From Candidatus Poribacteria bacterium (GTDB lineage: Bacteria > Poribacteria > DTPJ01 > WJIO01), in assembly GCA_014730235.1 (NCBI GenBank), contig WJIO01000009.1:1-12793 (forward strand): DNA of 12,793 bases, read 5' to 3'. Shown piece after piece: positions 6,825 to 12,793 of this stretch. A model generated the notes under the pieces. It did not search any database and was not told where the DNA came from. It was given only the letters and a program-made list of their open reading frames with translations. How positions within the stretch are numbered: position 1 is the stretch's first letter; the number at the start of each line of letters is the position of its first letter. Both the position numbers and the translations under genes were made by a program.

Positions 6825-7019
6825 TTCCGGGTTTAGTGTGGTTATAATTGAAAATTCTCTCAGCTTGTCATTCCTGCGAAAGCAGGAATTCAGTCTTTAT
6901 GTGGATCTACTGGATTCCTGCTTCAAGCTTTTTGAAAAAGCTTGAGCAAAAAGGAATAAGAGTTTCGCAGGAATGACAGCATAAAGAAGTTTCTTATATT
7001 TAAAACACTGAACCCGGAA
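6825..7019 (+). mobile_element. MITE-like element, copy 3
   Basis: This 195-bp non-coding element begins TTCCGGGTTTAGTGTGGT. It ends with an inverted, diverged version that reads TTCCGGGTTCAGTGTTTT on the other strand. Inside, a GTCATTCCTGCGAAAGCAGGAAT hairpin-type unit lies near the left end. It is mirrored by TTTCGCAGGAATGACA on the right, and a CAAGCTTTTT/AAAAAGCTTG stem-loop (6934-6954) occupies the middle. It aligns with copy 1 along its whole length in the opposite orientation. The flanks GGTTC and GGGTC (6820-6824, 7020-7024) agree at four of five positions, so a target duplication is possible but not shown. It lies in the divergent spacer between the M20 gene and the plus-strand cluster, upstream of the cluster promoter. 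Confidence 0.75.
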
Positions 7020-7069: not shown

Positions 7070-7098
7070 TTGACACTATTTTGTTAGTATTGTATATT
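7070..7098 (+). promoter_or_regulatory. Sigma70-type promoter of the prenyl-lipid gene cluster
   Basis: TTGACA (7070-7075) and TATATT (7093-7098) are separated by 17 bp; the -35 box is perfect and the -10 box has five of six consensus bases. Initiation near 7105 gives a leader of about 80 nt. It is the only strong promoter seen before the five plus-strand genes, which are close enough to form one transcript. Confidence 0.7.
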
Positions 7099-7133
7099 AC
7101 ATACGTCAACTTGGCAATATAAAACTAACTGGC

Positions 7134-7185
7134 TCTTCATAGCTAAGTATAGTAATGAAGAACTATTTTTATATAAATATTTATA
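7134..7185 (+). promoter_or_regulatory. Leader structures before the first prenyltransferase
   Basis: A 7-bp stem TCTTCAT (7134-7140) / ATGAAGA (7155-7161) with a 14-nt loop is followed by a 14-bp perfect palindrome TATAAATATTTATA (7172-7185) that ends directly at the ATG. No Shine-Dalgarno sequence is present between them. The palindrome could be an operator or simply AT-rich leader; nothing in the sequence decides this. Confidence 0.3.
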
Positions 7186-8259
7186 ATGCAACAAAAATCA
7201 GGGTTAGAGTTTGTGAAAAACCAACAGGAAAAGGTCATACCTGAACAAACCCACCCGGAAGATATTTCTTTAATTTCCTCCACATTTTATCGACTTTTAC
7301 AGTTATCAGACTATATAGCCATAACAAGGCCTTTATTGCTCATACCTGTATGGACTATGCTGTTTCTGGGCTATTATAAAAGCATAGCCGAAAATTTAAA
7401 TCATAAGGTCTCTTTACCCATTATAGGTGAATTAAGTATTATTCTCAAACCTGATAAAGGGATTATTACAACTTTTATACTTTATTCCCTTCTTATGGGT
7501 GCTATTTATATACTGAATCAACTAAGCGATATAAATACGGATAAAATAAACGGTAAACTTTATCTGGTATATCAGGGTTATATAGATAAAAAAAGACTTA
7601 AAATACAGATTATATCGATGCTTTTAGTTTCGGTTACCATATCACTGCTTGTATATACCCTTTCTTATTTGTATTTAATTATTCTTTCTATAGTCATAGG
7701 GATAATGTATTCTGTTACACCTTTCAGGTTAAAAGGAAGACCATTTTTTGATTTAATTGCCAATGCTTTCGGTTTCGGGATTGTGGCCTTCGCTGTTGGA
7801 TGGGCATCAAGATCTGAAATGTCAACTGATATGATTTTAAGCAGCATACCATACGTTATATGCGTTGCCGCAGCTTTCATTAATACAACAATACCGGATA
7901 TAAAAGGTGATGTACAAAATGGTGATATTACAACCGGGGCATTTCTTGGCATTCCCAAAGCCTGTATCACAAGCACCATACTTTTAACATCTGTGCCGGT
8001 GATAAGCTGGTTTCTCAGGGATTTTATTGCTATGTCCGCTTCCATTATATCTTTACCTTTTTTTATTTATATGACTTTTAAAAACCTGAATGAAAAATCA
8101 CCTGACATAAAAGCTGTTATTCTGGCTACAAAGATCAGCCTACTGACTCTATCAATTTTTGTTGCTATATTTATGCCATTTTATTTTGTTTTACTTTTCA
8201 TTACTATTTTGTTTATCAGGCTATATTATCATTCCAGATTTGGTATCAGCTATCCCTGA
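7186..8259 (+). CDS. UbiA-superfamily membrane prenyltransferase (first of two)
   Basis: This 357-residue integral membrane protein has about eight or nine hydrophobic helices. UbiA enzymes transfer a polyprenyl diphosphate chain to an acceptor using two Asp-rich, Mg2+-binding motifs. The first is NQLSDINTD (N111, D115, D119), preceded by the substrate-side ITRPLLLIPVW helix. The second is DIKGDVQNGD (D238, D242). The YSVTPFRLKGRPFFDL stretch (175-190) matches the usual YSxPPxRLKxR loop. It is divergent: the segment after motif one reads INGKLYLVYQGYI instead of the common INKPxRPxxxG, and the N-terminus carries about 40 extra polar residues. The acceptor cannot be named; quinone, chlorin-type and glycerol-lipid acceptors are all possible. 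ATG 7186 has no Shine-Dalgarno sequence. GTG 7213, with AGGG/TTAGAG just upstream, is an alternative start. It heads the plus-strand cluster. Confidence 0.88.
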   Translation: MQQKSGLEFVKNQQEKVIPEQTHPEDISLISSTFYRLLQLSDYIAITRPLLLIPVWTMLFLGYYKSIAENLNHKVSLPIIGELSIILKPDKGIITTFILYSLLMGAIYILNQLSDINTDKINGKLYLVYQGYIDKKRLKIQIISMLLVSVTISLLVYTLSYLYLIILSIVIGIMYSVTPFRLKGRPFFDLIANAFGFGIVAFAVGWASRSEMSTDMILSSIPYVICVAAAFINTTIPDIKGDVQNGDITTGAFLGIPKACITSTILLTSVPVISWFLRDFIAMSASIISLPFFIYMTFKNLNEKSPDIKAVILATKISLLTLSIFVAIFMPFYFVLLFITILFIRLYYHSRFGISYP

Positions 8260-8307
8260 ATAAATTATTTAAATTTAACATTGACATATAATTTTCATTA
8301 TGCAAAA

Positions 8308-9330
8308 ATGAATTTATCCATAATCACAACAATAGGTATAAATGCCGGTGACAATTTTATTTACGAGGGTTTTAAAAAACTCTTTCCGGTAAAAAAATAC
8401 GGTAGCATTTTGCTGATAAATAAAGCCGACGTTCCCAGGAGCAAAGAATACCGGGAACTTATAGATTTATCGGATATCATAGTTATATGCGGTTCTCCCA
8501 TATTCTATAAAGAGTGCTATAAGATGAAATGGCAGAACAGAATTCTGGATTACAGCAAAAAGTCGGGCAAAAAGATATTACTCTTCGCTGTTGGTTCTAA
8601 TTTTCTTTGTTCTGCTGATGGCAAAGTTAAGCCTCCGGTTGAAACAAGGGACGGAAGATATAGAAAATTTGTATCCCGTTATAATGAAGCAATAATCGAC
8701 GGTTTTAATGTAAGGGATAGATATTGCCGTAATTTTCTTAATGGTCTTGGATTTCAAAATGTAAATCAGGTTTCATGCCCGTCCTTATTTTCAGGTGATA
8801 TGAGAATCAAAGATAATGATGCAGATCTGATTTTTTTGATATGGGGGGATGATTACTGGAGTTGCAAACTTTCACCTAAAAAGATACTTAAAATATGTCA
8901 TGAAATTAAAGCTATACTGGAAAAAGAATTTTCTCAACAAAAAGTTGTTTGGGTATGTCATGACTTTAACTCTTATAAAAGATTGTTAAAAAAAGTTAAA
9001 AATCAAGAAGTATTGTTTTCAAACAATTATATAGACTTCTTTAAGTATTACAAACGTTGCCGATTTGCCTTTTCTGTAAAAGTTCATGGCTCTATGTTAC
9101 TTTCATCAATGGGGATACCTTCTTTATTATTGCAACTGGATTCCCGGGCATCAGTAATAGAAGCTCTGGATGAAACTTACGCAGTTCCGGCTATGGAAAC
9201 AGAAGAAATAGCTGAAATGTGCCTTCAAAAATTTGATAATAAAGGGGAATTCAGGGATAAAATAAATTACCTGAAAGATAAATATAAAAAAGAATATAAT
9301 CACCTATTTGAAAAATTGGGGTTTATCTAA
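8308..9330 (+). CDS. Polysaccharide pyruvyl transferase-like protein
   Basis: This protein of about 340 residues resembles the polysaccharide pyruvyl transferase family (PF04230, GT-B-like fold). The evidence is an N-terminal strand followed by GINAGDNFIYEG, a DIIVICGSP strand and loop, and a C-terminal signature FSVKVHGSMLLSSMGIP, with the conserved His-Gly (about residue 260), then QLDSRASVIEAL. Known members move pyruvyl groups from phosphoenolpyruvate to sugars of cell-wall polymers and lipid-linked glycans. Many homologues are uncharacterised, so the reaction here is open. I prefer ATG 8308 over TTG 8281: the first homologous strand MNLSIITTIGINAGD starts at this ATG, and the extra nine residues look unstructured. 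Neither start has a clear Shine-Dalgarno sequence. The protein is soluble, Lys-rich near the C-terminus, and separated by 48 bp from the prenyltransferase and 2 bp from the next gene. Confidence 0.75.
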   Translation: MNLSIITTIGINAGDNFIYEGFKKLFPVKKYGSILLINKADVPRSKEYRELIDLSDIIVICGSPIFYKECYKMKWQNRILDYSKKSGKKILLFAVGSNFLCSADGKVKPPVETRDGRYRKFVSRYNEAIIDGFNVRDRYCRNFLNGLGFQNVNQVSCPSLFSGDMRIKDNDADLIFLIWGDDYWSCKLSPKKILKICHEIKAILEKEFSQQKVVWVCHDFNSYKRLLKKVKNQEVLFSNNYIDFFKYYKRCRFAFSVKVHGSMLLSSMGIPSLLLQLDSRASVIEALDETYAVPAMETEEIAEMCLQKFDNKGEFRDKINYLKDKYKKEYNHLFEKLGFI

Positions 9331-9332
9331 AT

Positions 9333-10997
9333 ATGAACCATTTTTTACAATACAAATCATCTTCATCATTATTGCCTTTCATTGCCATCTCGATGTTGGT
9401 ATTAGTATGCTGGCGGGTATACTGTTATGCTGAAATTCATTATACATTTTTCGGTTATTCAATTATCAATCGGAAATACCCGGAAATACTGGCCGATGCT
9501 CCCTGGCGTTTGGATGAAGGGAAATCCCTTCCTATAGCCTGTCTTGTGAAAGATGCAAACATCTACCCCACAAAACTTAGAAGCATAATGGCCAGTTATT
9601 CAACACCTGATGGTGAAATATATCGAAAGCAAATTCTTTCCGAGAAACCGGTAAGGATTAATAAGCATTACTGGCATACTCTGGCTTTTCTTGATATACC
9701 CAAAGGGGCTGTTGGAAATATCAAGGTTAATGTGGATATGGATTTCACCTGTAAAGGTATAAAGAGGAAAGCTACTTCCGATAACCTGCCCGGTTTATCC
9801 CATAAGCCTTTCAATATATTTGTAAGCCCTTATAAACTGCCGTCATTTGATGGATGGTATTATGGAGATGGTCATTATCATACCCACATGTCCCACAATC
9901 AGGTTGAGTTCGGCGCACCATTAGACATTGCCTCAGAAATGGGTAAAGCCATAGGTATACAATGGGTAATAGCCTCTGACCATTCCTATGATCTGGATAG
10001 AGCAATGGGCAAGCTGTTTGAGCATGATCCAAAACTACCAAGATGGCAAAAGCTTCATGACGATGCCAAGATAATAAATTCAAAAGACAAAGAATTTGTG
10101 GTATTACCTGCCGAAGAAGTATCCTGCGGCAATTATAAAAAATATAATATACATTTGATAGCTCTTAACACTTCCCAATTTATACCCGGAAAGGGTGACG
10201 GAGTTAAAAGAGGTCTCAACAAAAGACCTGATCTAAGTCTGCGTCAGTGTCTTAACAGGATAAACGATCAAGATGGTTTTGCATATGCAGCCCATCCTGA
10301 AGAGGGTAACGGATACTTAGGCAAGCTGTTGCTAAACAGGGATTACTGGCGTAACCCGGACTATGATCAGGGTGGATATACCGGTCTTCAGTTCTGGAAC
10401 GGTTATCAGGGTAAACCTTTTAGAAAAGGATACAAAAAATGGGTTGAACTTCTTCTTGAAGGACGAAAACTTTTTGTTCTAGGTGGAAATGATGCTCATG
10501 GGGATTTTAACAGATGCCGAAAAGTCCGGTATCCAAATACAAAACTTGATGAAACCTATGATCATATATTCGGCAAAGTAAGAACTTATGCTAATTGCGG
10601 TGGTAACCTTTCCCAGGAAGGTGTTCTGGAAGCCCTTAGAAATGGAAGGACAATAGTAACTAACGGTCCTATTCTACTTATTGAAGCCAGGAGAGGAAAT
10701 CATTCTGCAGATATTGGCGAAGAAATAACAGGAAAAATTCAGGAAATTAAAATCAAAGCCAGTTCATCAAAAGAATTTGGTCCTATAGACAGAATTAAGT
10801 TATATAAAGGTGATTGTGTAGAAAAAGTTGAAAAAGTTTCCAGAGTTTTTATCCCCGAAAAAGACGAATATGAACTCGTATATAAATGCAACATAAACCA
10901 GAAAAACAGGGGTTATATCCGCGCAGAAGCATTTTCTTCAGCCAGAGGTTATAAGTATATGTGCATGACAAACCCCGTGTGGTTTCGCATAGTTTAA
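9333..10997 (+). CDS. Membrane-anchored PHP-domain metallohydrolase (CehA/McbA-like)
   Basis: The 554-residue protein starts with an uncleaved-looking membrane segment (about 11-30). It then has a region of about 140 residues, likely a beta-rich domain, and a PHP metallohydrolase core (about 175-450). Metal-ligand motifs are in the expected order: GDGHYHTH (D179, H181, H183), ASDHS (D216, H217), AEE (E261, E262), H274, AAHPEEG (H321) and GGNDAHGD (N386, D387, H389). The core ends with ALRNGRTIVTNGP, which is typical of the CehA/McbA group, and a C-terminal domain of about 100 residues follows. The anchor implies action at or outside the inner membrane. PHP enzymes hydrolyse phosphoesters, and this subgroup also includes carbamate/amide hydrolases, so the substrate is unknown. 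ATG 9333 follows the preceding stop by 2 bp, and the next gene starts 4 bp after this one, which strongly suggests an operon. Confidence 0.88.
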   Translation: MNHFLQYKSSSSLLPFIAISMLVLVCWRVYCYAEIHYTFFGYSIINRKYPEILADAPWRLDEGKSLPIACLVKDANIYPTKLRSIMASYSTPDGEIYRKQILSEKPVRINKHYWHTLAFLDIPKGAVGNIKVNVDMDFTCKGIKRKATSDNLPGLSHKPFNIFVSPYKLPSFDGWYYGDGHYHTHMSHNQVEFGAPLDIASEMGKAIGIQWVIASDHSYDLDRAMGKLFEHDPKLPRWQKLHDDAKIINSKDKEFVVLPAEEVSCGNYKKYNIHLIALNTSQFIPGKGDGVKRGLNKRPDLSLRQCLNRINDQDGFAYAAHPEEGNGYLGKLLLNRDYWRNPDYDQGGYTGLQFWNGYQGKPFRKGYKKWVELLLEGRKLFVLGGNDAHGDFNRCRKVRYPNTKLDETYDHIFGKVRTYANCGGNLSQEGVLEALRNGRTIVTNGPILLIEARRGNHSADIGEEITGKIQEIKIKASSSKEFGPIDRIKLYKGDCVEKVEKVSRVFIPEKDEYELVYKCNINQKNRGYIRAEAFSSARGYKYMCMTNPVWFRIV

Positions 10998-11001
10998 AAT
11001 T

Positions 11002-11862
11002 ATGAGTAAGTCAGGAGTCAGAACCAAAATTTCAGGTTACTTTAAGCTAATGCGTCCGTTGAATGGTGCAATAGCATTTATATCTGTAATAATGGGTGCT
11101 TTTCTGGCTAACGGTGATTTAGCATCTTTGGATAAAATATTAATTACAGCCTCAGCGGCTTTTATTATATTATCATCGGGAAATGTAATAAACGACTACT
11201 ATGATGTTGAAACCGACAGAATAAATAAACCCTATCGTCCTATACCTTCCAGACAGATAAAACGAACTAATGCGCTTATTTTCTCAATATGCCTTTTTAT
11301 AGCAGGAGTTTGCATGGGTTTGTTTGTTAATTTAACAGCATTTTTTATCGCACTTTTTTCATCAGTATTGCTTATATTATATACAACTATACTAAGACGT
11401 TTTCTGCTTTTAGGCAATATGACAGTTGGCCTGCTGACTGGATTGACATTTATTTCAGGTGGAGCAGCGGTAGAAAATATAGGACAAAGCCTGATTCCCG
11501 CAGTTTTTGCCTTTTTATTTACTGTAGCCAGAGAAATTGTGAAAGACATTCAGGATGTAAAAGGCGATCAACATGCAGGTATGTCAAGTTTACCCATAAA
11601 ATTAGGTAGACGCAGGGCTATGTATATTTCTTTTGTATTTTTTATCCTGGTAATTCTCATAAGTCCTGTACCATATTTAATGAACTTATATTCTATTTAC
11701 TATCTTATTTCTGTAACAATTGGGGTTGACTTGGTTCTTATAATCTGTATGATTATAATGTCAAAAGACCTTAACGAAATAAATACAGCCAGAGTTTCAA
11801 GTCTTATGAAATTTGATATTTTTATCGGATTGGGGGCTATTTATCTTGGAGGAATACACTGA
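11002..11862 (+). CDS. UbiA prenyltransferase, digeranylgeranylglyceryl-phosphate synthase-like
   Basis: This 286-residue membrane protein has about nine helices. It carries NVINDYYDVETDRINKPYRP (N61-P80; N64, D68, D72) and REIVKDIQDVKGDQHAG (R177-G193; D182, D185, D189), followed by SLPIKLGRR. This combination is close to the archaeal geranylgeranylglycerol-phosphate geranylgeranyltransferase group (DGGGP synthase), which adds the second C20 chain to a glycerol-phosphate ether lipid. Bacterial relatives with the same motifs are often annotated this way without proof, and menaquinone- or tocopherol-type acceptors remain possible. All catalytic residues are present and the length is normal. 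The start at ATG 11002 is 4 bp after the PHP gene and lacks a Shine-Dalgarno sequence. The following reductase gene starts 3 bp after its stop, as expected if the prenyl product is then saturated. Confidence 0.88.
   Translation: MSKSGVRTKISGYFKLMRPLNGAIAFISVIMGAFLANGDLASLDKILITASAAFIILSSGNVINDYYDVETDRINKPYRPIPSRQIKRTNALIFSICLFIAGVCMGLFVNLTAFFIALFSSVLLILYTTILRRFLLLGNMTVGLLTGLTFISGGAAVENIGQSLIPAVFAFLFTVAREIVKDIQDVKGDQHAGMSSLPIKLGRRRAMYISFVFFILVILISPVPYLMNLYSIYYLISVTIGVDLVLIICMIIMSKDLNEINTARVSSLMKFDIFIGLGAIYLGGIH
11848..11853 (+). promoter_or_regulatory. Ribosome-binding site of the ferredoxin-reductase gene
   Basis: GGAGGA lies within the last codons of the preceding prenyltransferase gene, 12 bases before ATG 11866. 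The spacing is longer than usual, but it is the only strong Shine-Dalgarno sequence seen in the plus-strand cluster. Confidence 0.5.
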
Positions 11863-11865
11863 AGT

Positions 11866-12793
11866 ATGAATTATCCAGTTGTAAACAGGCAAGTATGCGG
11901 TTACTGCGGCGCCTGTGTAAGTGTTTGTCCAGAAAATGCCATTGAATTGGTTGATACTTATGTCAGTATAGATAATAATTTATGTTCCAAATGTTTATCC
12001 TGTGTGAAAGTCTGTCCAGTAGGGGCTTTATCTACTGATATGCTTAATCCTGACCTTTTGTATAACAAACCATCTACTGAAAAAGCATCAATAAATGTTG
12101 ATGTGTTGATTATTGGTGGAGGCCCGGCCGGATCAATAGCAGCCCGAACTCTGGCGGAGCAGAATCTTGAAGTCCTTATGGTGGAAAAGCGTCAGGAGAT
12201 AGGAACTCCTGTCAGATGCGCCGAAGGGATAAGTAAAGAAGCACTGTTAAAGTTGACGGCTATTGACCCAAAATGGGTTTCTGCGCCTATAAACAGCGGG
12301 TGTATATATGCTCCTAATGGTGATTCTGTCACCCTTGAACAGCCGAATACGGGTCTAGTATTGGAAAGAAAAATATTTGATAGGGATTTAGCCCACCAGG
12401 CAGCCAAAGCCGGTGCTGATATATGGGTTAAAGCCAGAGCAGTTGGCATTATAAAGCAGAATGGAAATGTGATAGGTGCTGTGGTTCGTCGTGCAGGAAT
12501 TGATTATGAAATAAAATCAAAAGTCGTGATCGCCGCTGATGGTGTTGAGTCCCGGATCGCAAGATGGGCAGGAATTGATACCCATTGTAAGAACAGTGAT
12601 GTGGATACATGCGTCCAATATCTTATGACGGGTCTGGATAATATAAAGCCAGACTGCTGTTGTTTCTACCTCGGACATGAGGTGGCTCCCAGGGGTTACG
12701 CGTGGATATTCCCCAAGGGCAATGGTTCAGCCAACGTAGGGATTGGTATTGGCGGAAATATTGATAATAAGACAGCCCTGGATTACCTTAATC
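11866..12793 (+). CDS. 2[4Fe-4S] ferredoxin - geranylgeranyl reductase fusion (3' partial)
   Basis: The first 309 residues are present; the gene runs off the right edge. Residues 1-55 form a bacterial-type ferredoxin with two CxxCxxCxxxCP motifs (C11, C14, C17, C21; C40, C43, C46, C50). A linker leads to a Rossmann FAD-binding domain starting VDVLIIGGGPAGSIAA (G84-G89). Geranylgeranyl-reductase hallmarks follow: EIGTPVRCAEGIS (111-123), the second FAD motif VVIAADGVESRIARWAG (220-236) and RGYAWIFPKG (276-285). The family reduces isoprenoid double bonds, as in archaeal phospholipids, phytyl chains or menaquinone, using ferredoxin or NAD(P)H. The fused iron-sulfur domain suggests electrons arrive through it. 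ATG 11866 is 3 bp after the prenyltransferase stop, which suggests coupling. The base composition looks richer in GC than the two genes at the start of the cluster. The end of the protein cannot be judged. Confidence 0.92.
   Translation, partial: MNYPVVNRQVCGYCGACVSVCPENAIELVDTYVSIDNNLCSKCLSCVKVCPVGALSTDMLNPDLLYNKPSTEKASINVDVLIIGGGPAGSIAARTLAEQNLEVLMVEKRQEIGTPVRCAEGISKEALLKLTAIDPKWVSAPINSGCIYAPNGDSVTLEQPNTGLVLERKIFDRDLAHQAAKAGADIWVKARAVGIIKQNGNVIGAVVRRAGIDYEIKSKVVIAADGVESRIARWAGIDTHCKNSDVDTCVQYLMTGLDNIKPDCCCFYLGHEVAPRGYAWIFPKGNGSANVGIGIGGNIDNKTALDYLN

Follow-up and report, generated by a model that had tools for sequence, protein, structure and literature searches.

Whether living bacteria possess mixed archaeal-bacterial membranes is one of the unsettled points of the 'lipid divide', and the case for such membranes has so far been made mainly with metagenome-assembled genomes (MAGs) of Cloacimonetes. 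Enzymes of that phylum yield PG-archaeol in E. coli (PMC7852524), and Villanueva et al., using the genomes of the Fibrobacteres-Chlorobi-Bacteroidetes (FCB) group then available, reported that co-localisation of bacterial genes for geranylgeranylglyceryl phosphate synthase (GGGPS) and digeranylgeranylglyceryl phosphate (DGGGP) synthase (DGGGPS) seemed restricted to Cloacimonetes (PMC7852524). A survey of 12 FCB phyla by Coleman et al. lists both synthases for every one of them, with no mention of Poribacteria in the accessible part of that paper (PMC6431249), and the literature that we searched (many subscription papers and bioRxiv being outside its coverage) yielded no report of a GGGPS in Poribacteria. 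Here we describe a 12,793 bp stretch of DNA (the window), which is the entire contig WJIO01000009.1 (C39) of a Candidatus Poribacteria MAG (5.5 Mb, 451 contigs, completeness 91.6%, contamination 4.8%). It carries a cluster of genes for a UbiA-superfamily prenyltransferase (UbiAa), a polysaccharide-pyruvyl-transferase-like protein, a PHP metallohydrolase, a second prenyltransferase (UbiAb) and a ferredoxin-geranylgeranyl reductase (GGR) fusion. We conclude that, with its continuation on another contig, this cluster very probably encodes the core archaeal-type isoprenoid ether-lipid pathway (GGGPS, DGGGPS and GGR).

UbiAb matches MjDGGGPS (PDB 6m31) with an E-value of 4e-49, the next best match being a chlorophyll synthase at 7e-13; it also matches the NCBIfam model NF009521 (E 8e-71) and has motifs, NVINDYYDVETDRINKP and REIVKDIQDVKGD, similar to those of MjDGGGPS. 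We placed both prenyltransferases in a maximum-likelihood tree of 44 UbiA proteins, in which MjDGGGPS, E. coli MenA, UbiA and CyoE, ChlG and the genome's own MenA-like protein served as references. UbiAb sequences cluster with MjDGGGPS (support 97/91), apart from the three E. coli enzymes, the chlorophyll synthase and the MenA-like protein, which bears out the first-pass annotation of this DNA, where the second UbiA had been called DGGGPS-like. Both UbiA proteins stay outside the menaquinone, haem and chlorophyll clades, although the references are few and several of them sit on long branches.

The GGR gene is interrupted by the contig end at 12793. The part present in the window exceeds the cut-off of the GGR superfamily model TIGR02032 (165 against 159 bits) and, the protein being incomplete, scores 208 bits on the DGGGP-lipid reductase model, whose cut-off is 780; a full-length homologue (470 aa) from the poribacterial genome G001 matches the Thermoplasma DGGGP-lipid reductase 3oz2 at E 2e-89. 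Two [4Fe-4S] motifs are fused to the N-terminus, and G057 encodes the ferredoxin in a small frame of its own immediately 5' of GGR. The GGR of M. acetivorans requires a ferredoxin encoded in its own locus (PMC10821996). We read the fusion as a direct sign of a GGR predicted to be ferredoxin-driven. In G035 the UbiAb-GGR-GGGPS genes (L167:6504-9199, + strand) come after genes resembling 2-oxoacid:ferredoxin oxidoreductases (assigned by eye), which fits a ferredoxin-driven GGR and may point to a source of reduced ferredoxin.

A GGGPS, which the first-pass annotation had named as a further enzyme of such a pathway, is present as the only one in the genome (profile search, PF01884, 164 bits). It lies on contig C153 as the next gene after the C-terminal part of a GGR, which sits at the end of that contig directly upstream. 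It matches the archaeal GGGPS 4mm1 (E 5e-55, 189 bits) far better than Bacillus PcrB (1e-10, 44 bits), and PcrB is thus not its closest relative. When aligned to the full-length G001 GGR, C39 spans approximately the first 314 residues and C153 begins some 16 residues later. Because the two contigs hold complementary parts of GGR, and because UbiAb, GGR and GGGPS follow one another on single contigs in relatives (G001, G057 and G040), the join of C39 to C153 appears well supported.

By homology to enzymes of characterised activity, GGGPS would link geranylgeranyl diphosphate to glycerol-1-phosphate (G1P), UbiAb would attach the second geranylgeranyl chain to give DGGGP, and the fused GGR would saturate the chains with electrons from its own [4Fe-4S] clusters. 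The isoprenoid ether-lipid route with a DGGGPS and a ferredoxin-linked GGR, as first proposed for this locus, is therefore strongly supported by homology. The product could then receive its phospholipid head group from bacterial CDP-diacylglycerol enzymes, as has been demonstrated with Cloacimonetes genes expressed in E. coli; alternatively, the PHP protein might cleave off the phosphate or some phosphate-bearing group, and a family 2 glycosyltransferase (GT2) or another transferase might glycosylate the diether. UbiAa would probably prenylate another substrate of the same pathway. The sequences themselves establish which genes are present, how they are ordered, that they are related to archaeal ones, and that they co-occur and cluster throughout the phylum; the product, its saturation, its head group and its role in the envelope are what we infer from them.

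Several observations weigh against this reading. The C39-C153 join rests on inference, there being no spanning read, and an exact overlap between the contig ends was sought and none was found. G1P dehydrogenase and CDP-archaeol synthase (CarS), both also named in the first-pass annotation, were not found in the genome at its 91.6% completeness in 451 contigs: its three Fe-ADH_2 matches are AroB and two alcohol dehydrogenases of the lactaldehyde-reductase type, and there is no PF01864 match. Further to that, the cluster of many sponge-type genomes has no GGR and that of most has no PHP, and these steps are therefore not universal in the phylum. Cloacimonetes also lack G1P dehydrogenase and CarS; bacterial CdsA can stand in for CarS, and G1P is formed in E. 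coli through an as yet unexplained route (PMC7852524). In G016, from another family of Poribacteria, a gene at L182:694-2034 (- strand) scores 204 bits on NF002022, below the cut-off of 413; it is likely a G1P dehydrogenase, which would complete the pathway there. Sponge-type Poribacteria have a weaker relative (115 bits).

Archaeal-type lipid genes had been proposed for bacteria of the FCB group, and a survey of 58 Poribacteria genomes (orthologues called at over 100 bits) bears this out. GGGPS is present in 51 of them and a DGGGPS orthologue in 52, such that 51 have both synthases, 6 have neither and 1 has DGGGPS alone (Fisher p 1.7e-7, uncorrected for shared ancestry). The two synthases are retained or lost jointly in the phylum, and in 41 of the 51 genomes with both they lie no more than 8 kb apart. 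Single-contig chromosomes carry them in G010, G019, G035, G037, G045 and G047. On the same strand, lpxD is located 5' of DGGGPS in at least 26 genomes (19, plus G001, G004, G010, G016, G023, G029 and G057). The usual gene order is bamA-skp-lpxD-[deacetylase]-UbiAa-[GT2-PHP]-UbiAb-[trmH]-[ferredoxin/GGR]-GGGPS, and in several genomes hrcA, grpE, dnaK or dnaJ come next. G003 and G055 are exceptions, with GT2-PHP-UbiAb and no lpxD, as is G035 with the oxidoreductase-like genes described above; the window, too, has no adjacent lpxD. The usual location beside bamA-skp-lpxD hints at an envelope function. Replacement of lipid A by the archaeal-type lipid can be rejected: LpxC is encoded in all 58 genomes and lipid A synthesis is therefore not replaced.

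The PHP protein of the window passes the CehA/McbA-type model NF038032 (cut-off 80 bits) and matches no Pfam family. Ten residues of metal-site type (H181, H183, E192, D216, H217, E262, H274, H321, D387 and H389) are invariant in 22 of 22 diverse members. A Foldseek search with the whole AlphaFold model (predicted local distance difference test score of 89) returned only beta-sandwich noise, and the PHP phosphoesterase fold emerged in a later structure comparison, with 3e38 (Z 17.7, root-mean-square deviation 3.2 over 229 residues) and 2anu (Z 16.0, deviation 2.6 over 201 residues). At the N-terminus a short run of hydrophobic residues closes with YAE(I/T)HY. In many members its length would not suffice for a signal peptide, and we therefore expect a membrane-bound enzyme on the cytoplasmic side. 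To our knowledge, this protein and its relatives are not carbamate hydrolases.

We found 196 relatives of this protein across FCB lineages, 80 of which were retained for analysis. PHP lies directly beside UbiAb in all seven PHP-positive Poribacteria. GGGPS was present in 50 of the 50 PHP-bearing genomes examined from outside Poribacteria, one of them with a partial match, these genomes having been drawn from the best-scoring loci. In an evenly drawn set of 247 genomes from a single phylum, GGGPS occurred in 13/13 genomes with PHP and in 76/234 without it (p 9e-7, uncorrected for ancestry). Taken together, 69 of 69 PHP-positive genomes checked encode GGGPS (the seven Poribacteria included, and a genome shared between samples counted once). 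PHP thus marks GGGPS-bearing genomes, but GGGPS does not need PHP. We regard PHP as a conserved partner and an FCB-wide candidate for a new member of the pathway, in which it might serve in head-group processing; by analogy the simplest guess is a lipid phosphatase, for which Bacillus, whose archaeal-type ether lipid is dephosphorylated and acetylated, offers a precedent (PMC9179154).

Outside Poribacteria (L047, L049, L055, L058, L060, L084, L089 and others) PHP often comes after a run of GT2 glycosyltransferase genes together with genes for a flippase-like LPG_synthase_TM protein, a small polysaccharide deacetylase and, in some cases, a radical SAM protein; these apparently form a conserved FCB glycolipid-type cluster. 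A further conserved arrangement is seen in KSB1 genomes (L048, L049, L050, L053, L061, L062 and L070), in which DGGGPS, encoded on the strand opposite to PHP, is found ~4 kb downstream of it, and maf, dtd and a gene for an mpl-like ligase separate the two. In Marinimicrobia GGGPS is found near PHP. Proximity in these two groups is suggestive and may be incidental.

These loci bring us to the alternative that survives best, to which we give a substantial but clearly lesser chance: that the product is a minor dephosphorylated or glycosylated isoprenoid diether of the envelope, not a bulk membrane phospholipid. PHP would take off the phosphate, and a GT2, the pyruvyl-transferase-like protein or a deacetylase would build a sugar head. 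The PHP fold with its complete and invariant metal site agrees with such a role, as do the GT2 gene that immediately precedes PHP in several Poribacteria and in numerous further loci of the FCB group, the polysaccharide deacetylase within the cluster, the location after lpxD, and the processing of the ether lipid in Bacillus. However, the PHP subfamily has no member of established substrate, neither a GT2 nor a deacetylase lies beside PHP in the window, and bacterial CdsA and PgsA can process a DGGGP-type product unaided (PMC7852524). A more specific proposal, in which the saturated diether is a dedicated outer-membrane (glyco)lipid, with DGGGPS and its partners as an integral part of the bamA-skp-lpxD envelope locus, PHP as lipid phosphatase, a sugar head attached by GT2 or related enzymes and an extra prenyl group from UbiAa, seems to us rather unlikely as a whole. 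If true, such a lipid would share the envelope with lipid A and would be an inherited trait of FCB-type bacteria.

It is very improbable that the two UbiA proteins are aromatic or porphyrin prenyltransferases of quinone, haem or chlorophyll biosynthesis, with GGR saturating a quinone tail. What speaks for it are matches of UbiAa to chlorophyll-synthase and homogentisate models, which are weak (38-50 bits). In the tree, however, UbiAb goes with MjDGGGPS and outside E. coli MenA, UbiA, CyoE and ChlG; GGGPS adjoins the cluster, the best match of GGR is a DGGGP-lipid reductase, and a separate MenA-like UbiA is encoded elsewhere beside carotenoid genes. Tree and profile scores together largely refute this view of the UbiA genes. 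That MenA-like gene lies on contig C314 (L011) beside IDI-2-like, phytoene-desaturase-like and phytoene-synthase-like genes (all but the UbiA assigned by eye). UbiAa itself forms its own clade (support 95/99), not grouped with MjDGGGPS, and gave no match in the PDB sequence search. Because it keeps both Asp-rich motifs (invariant in eight relatives) and a predicted UbiA fold, with 4tq3 and 6m31 as nearest structures, it is probably active, and we regard it as a candidate new member of the pathway. G019 and G034 still carry fragments of UbiAa ahead of UbiAb, which shows that some sponge-type genomes have lost it while retaining UbiAb.

A similarly slight chance attaches to the enzymes running backwards and degrading archaeal lipids from the environment, as has been suggested for FCB bacteria without G1P dehydrogenase (PMC6431249). 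The failure to find that enzyme in this genome would fit, but the fused ferredoxin-GGR points to a chain-saturating, biosynthetic function, published assays of GGGPS and DGGGPS run forward, and some Poribacteria have G1P dehydrogenase-like genes, such as that of G016. Archaeal contigs misplaced in a bacterial bin would be conceivable in a fragmented MAG with some contamination, yet this is scarcely credible and can be rejected, as PBP1c, a DMT permease and a DUF6785 remnant share the contig and the cluster occurs with lpxD and bamA on single-contig Poribacteria chromosomes.

The five open reading frames behind the ether-lipid reading occupy positions 7186-12793 (Table 1), and a check of the window confirms that all lie on the + strand with spacings of 48, 2, 4 and 3 bp, the first counted from the ATG at 8308 (21 bp with the TTG at 8281 as start). 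The strong promoter reported earlier stands in part: the site is present, but promoter-like sites are no commoner in the window (28) than in shuffled sequence (25.1±4.9). The gene order is not unique to this contig: related genomes keep it except for the pyruvyl-transferase-like gene, and the arrangement is therefore not due to chance. The pyruvyl-transferase-like gene was not found in 87 related loci (searched with one-sequence profiles, which are weak), and relatives have a GT2 glycosyltransferase or nothing in its place. Its product meets only the broad Pfam family, scoring 17 bits on the NCBIfam CsaB equivalog (cut-off 213). It appears to be an addition seen only in this genome and not conserved, which leaves the head-group role earlier ascribed to it unsupported.

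Table 1. Features of the gene cluster in the window
Feature	Position	Strand	Basis
Promoter-like site TTGACA-17-TATATT	7070..7098	+	Consensus scan; 87 bp 5' of first ATG
UbiAa, UbiA-superfamily prenyltransferase, intact, separate clade	7186..8259	+	Pfam UbiA E 2e-17
Polysaccharide-pyruvyl-transferase-like protein	8308..9330 (alternative TTG start 8281)	+	Pfam PS_pyruv_trans E 5e-13
CehA/McbA-type PHP metallohydrolase, hydrophobic N-terminus	9333..10997	+	NCBIfam NF038032 111 bits
UbiAb, putative DGGGP synthase	11002..11862	+	UbiA/DGGGPS-like family E 6e-50; 6m31; NF009521; tree
Ferredoxin-GGR fusion, N-terminal 309 residues	11866..12793	+	Pfam Fer4 + GGR_cat

Elsewhere in the window, a broken DUF6785/DUF6784 transporter-like gene (144-1457, - strand) has lost the part coding for residues 1-206 and is interrupted by an in-frame stop close to 1170; it aligns to residues 207-638 of an intact 641-aa paralogue on contig C138 of the same genome. 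A tRNA-Ala gene is located at 1792-1867. The palindromic repeat CATTCCTGCGAAAGCAGGAAT at 6869-6889 has further copies on C314, C96, C189 and C271 and was not found in the fetched loci of other genomes, and is thus a dispersed, genome-specific repeat.

Compared with known systems, the poribacterial locus shares with the archaeal diether pathway three consecutive enzymes with clear homologues (GGGPS 4mm1, MjDGGGPS 6m31 and Thermoplasma 3oz2), but CarS and an own G1P dehydrogenase were not found, and the host is a bacterium with lipid A genes. The Bacillus PcrB/heptaprenylglyceryl phosphate route likewise has an enzyme of the GGGPS superfamily, a bacterial ether lipid and a precedent for dephosphorylation, whereas the poribacterial GGGPS is far closer to archaeal enzymes (189 versus 44 bits) and DGGGPS would add a second chain. 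The PHP protein resembles CehA/McbA-type metallohydrolases in model score, fold and metal-site residues, and differs in its conserved YAE(I/T)HY N-terminus and its tie to GGGPS-bearing FCB genomes. The nearest relative is the FCB mixed-membrane pathway of Cloacimonetes (PMC7852524), which also has co-localised archaeal-type GGGPS and DGGGPS and an encoded GGR, with CarS and G1P dehydrogenase likewise not found. In Poribacteria, a different phylum, GGR is in the cluster and fused to ferredoxin, UbiAa, PHP, GT2 and deacetylase are partners, and the usual place is after bamA-skp-lpxD. Co-localisation, limited among bacteria to Cloacimonetes in the earlier study, is the rule here; as that study sampled the genomes then available, our data extend it and do not contradict it. 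On homology, the known FCB mixed-membrane pathway is thereby extended to another phylum, in which nearly all genomes have both key synthases; their genes are clustered, are found on single-contig chromosomes and are often associated with genes for the outer membrane. Poribacteria, related to sponge symbionts, are a promising place to seek mixed archaeal-bacterial membranes, and as they are abundant in marine sponges, sponge lipids could test directly whether they share the mixed-membrane character proposed for Cloacimonetes.

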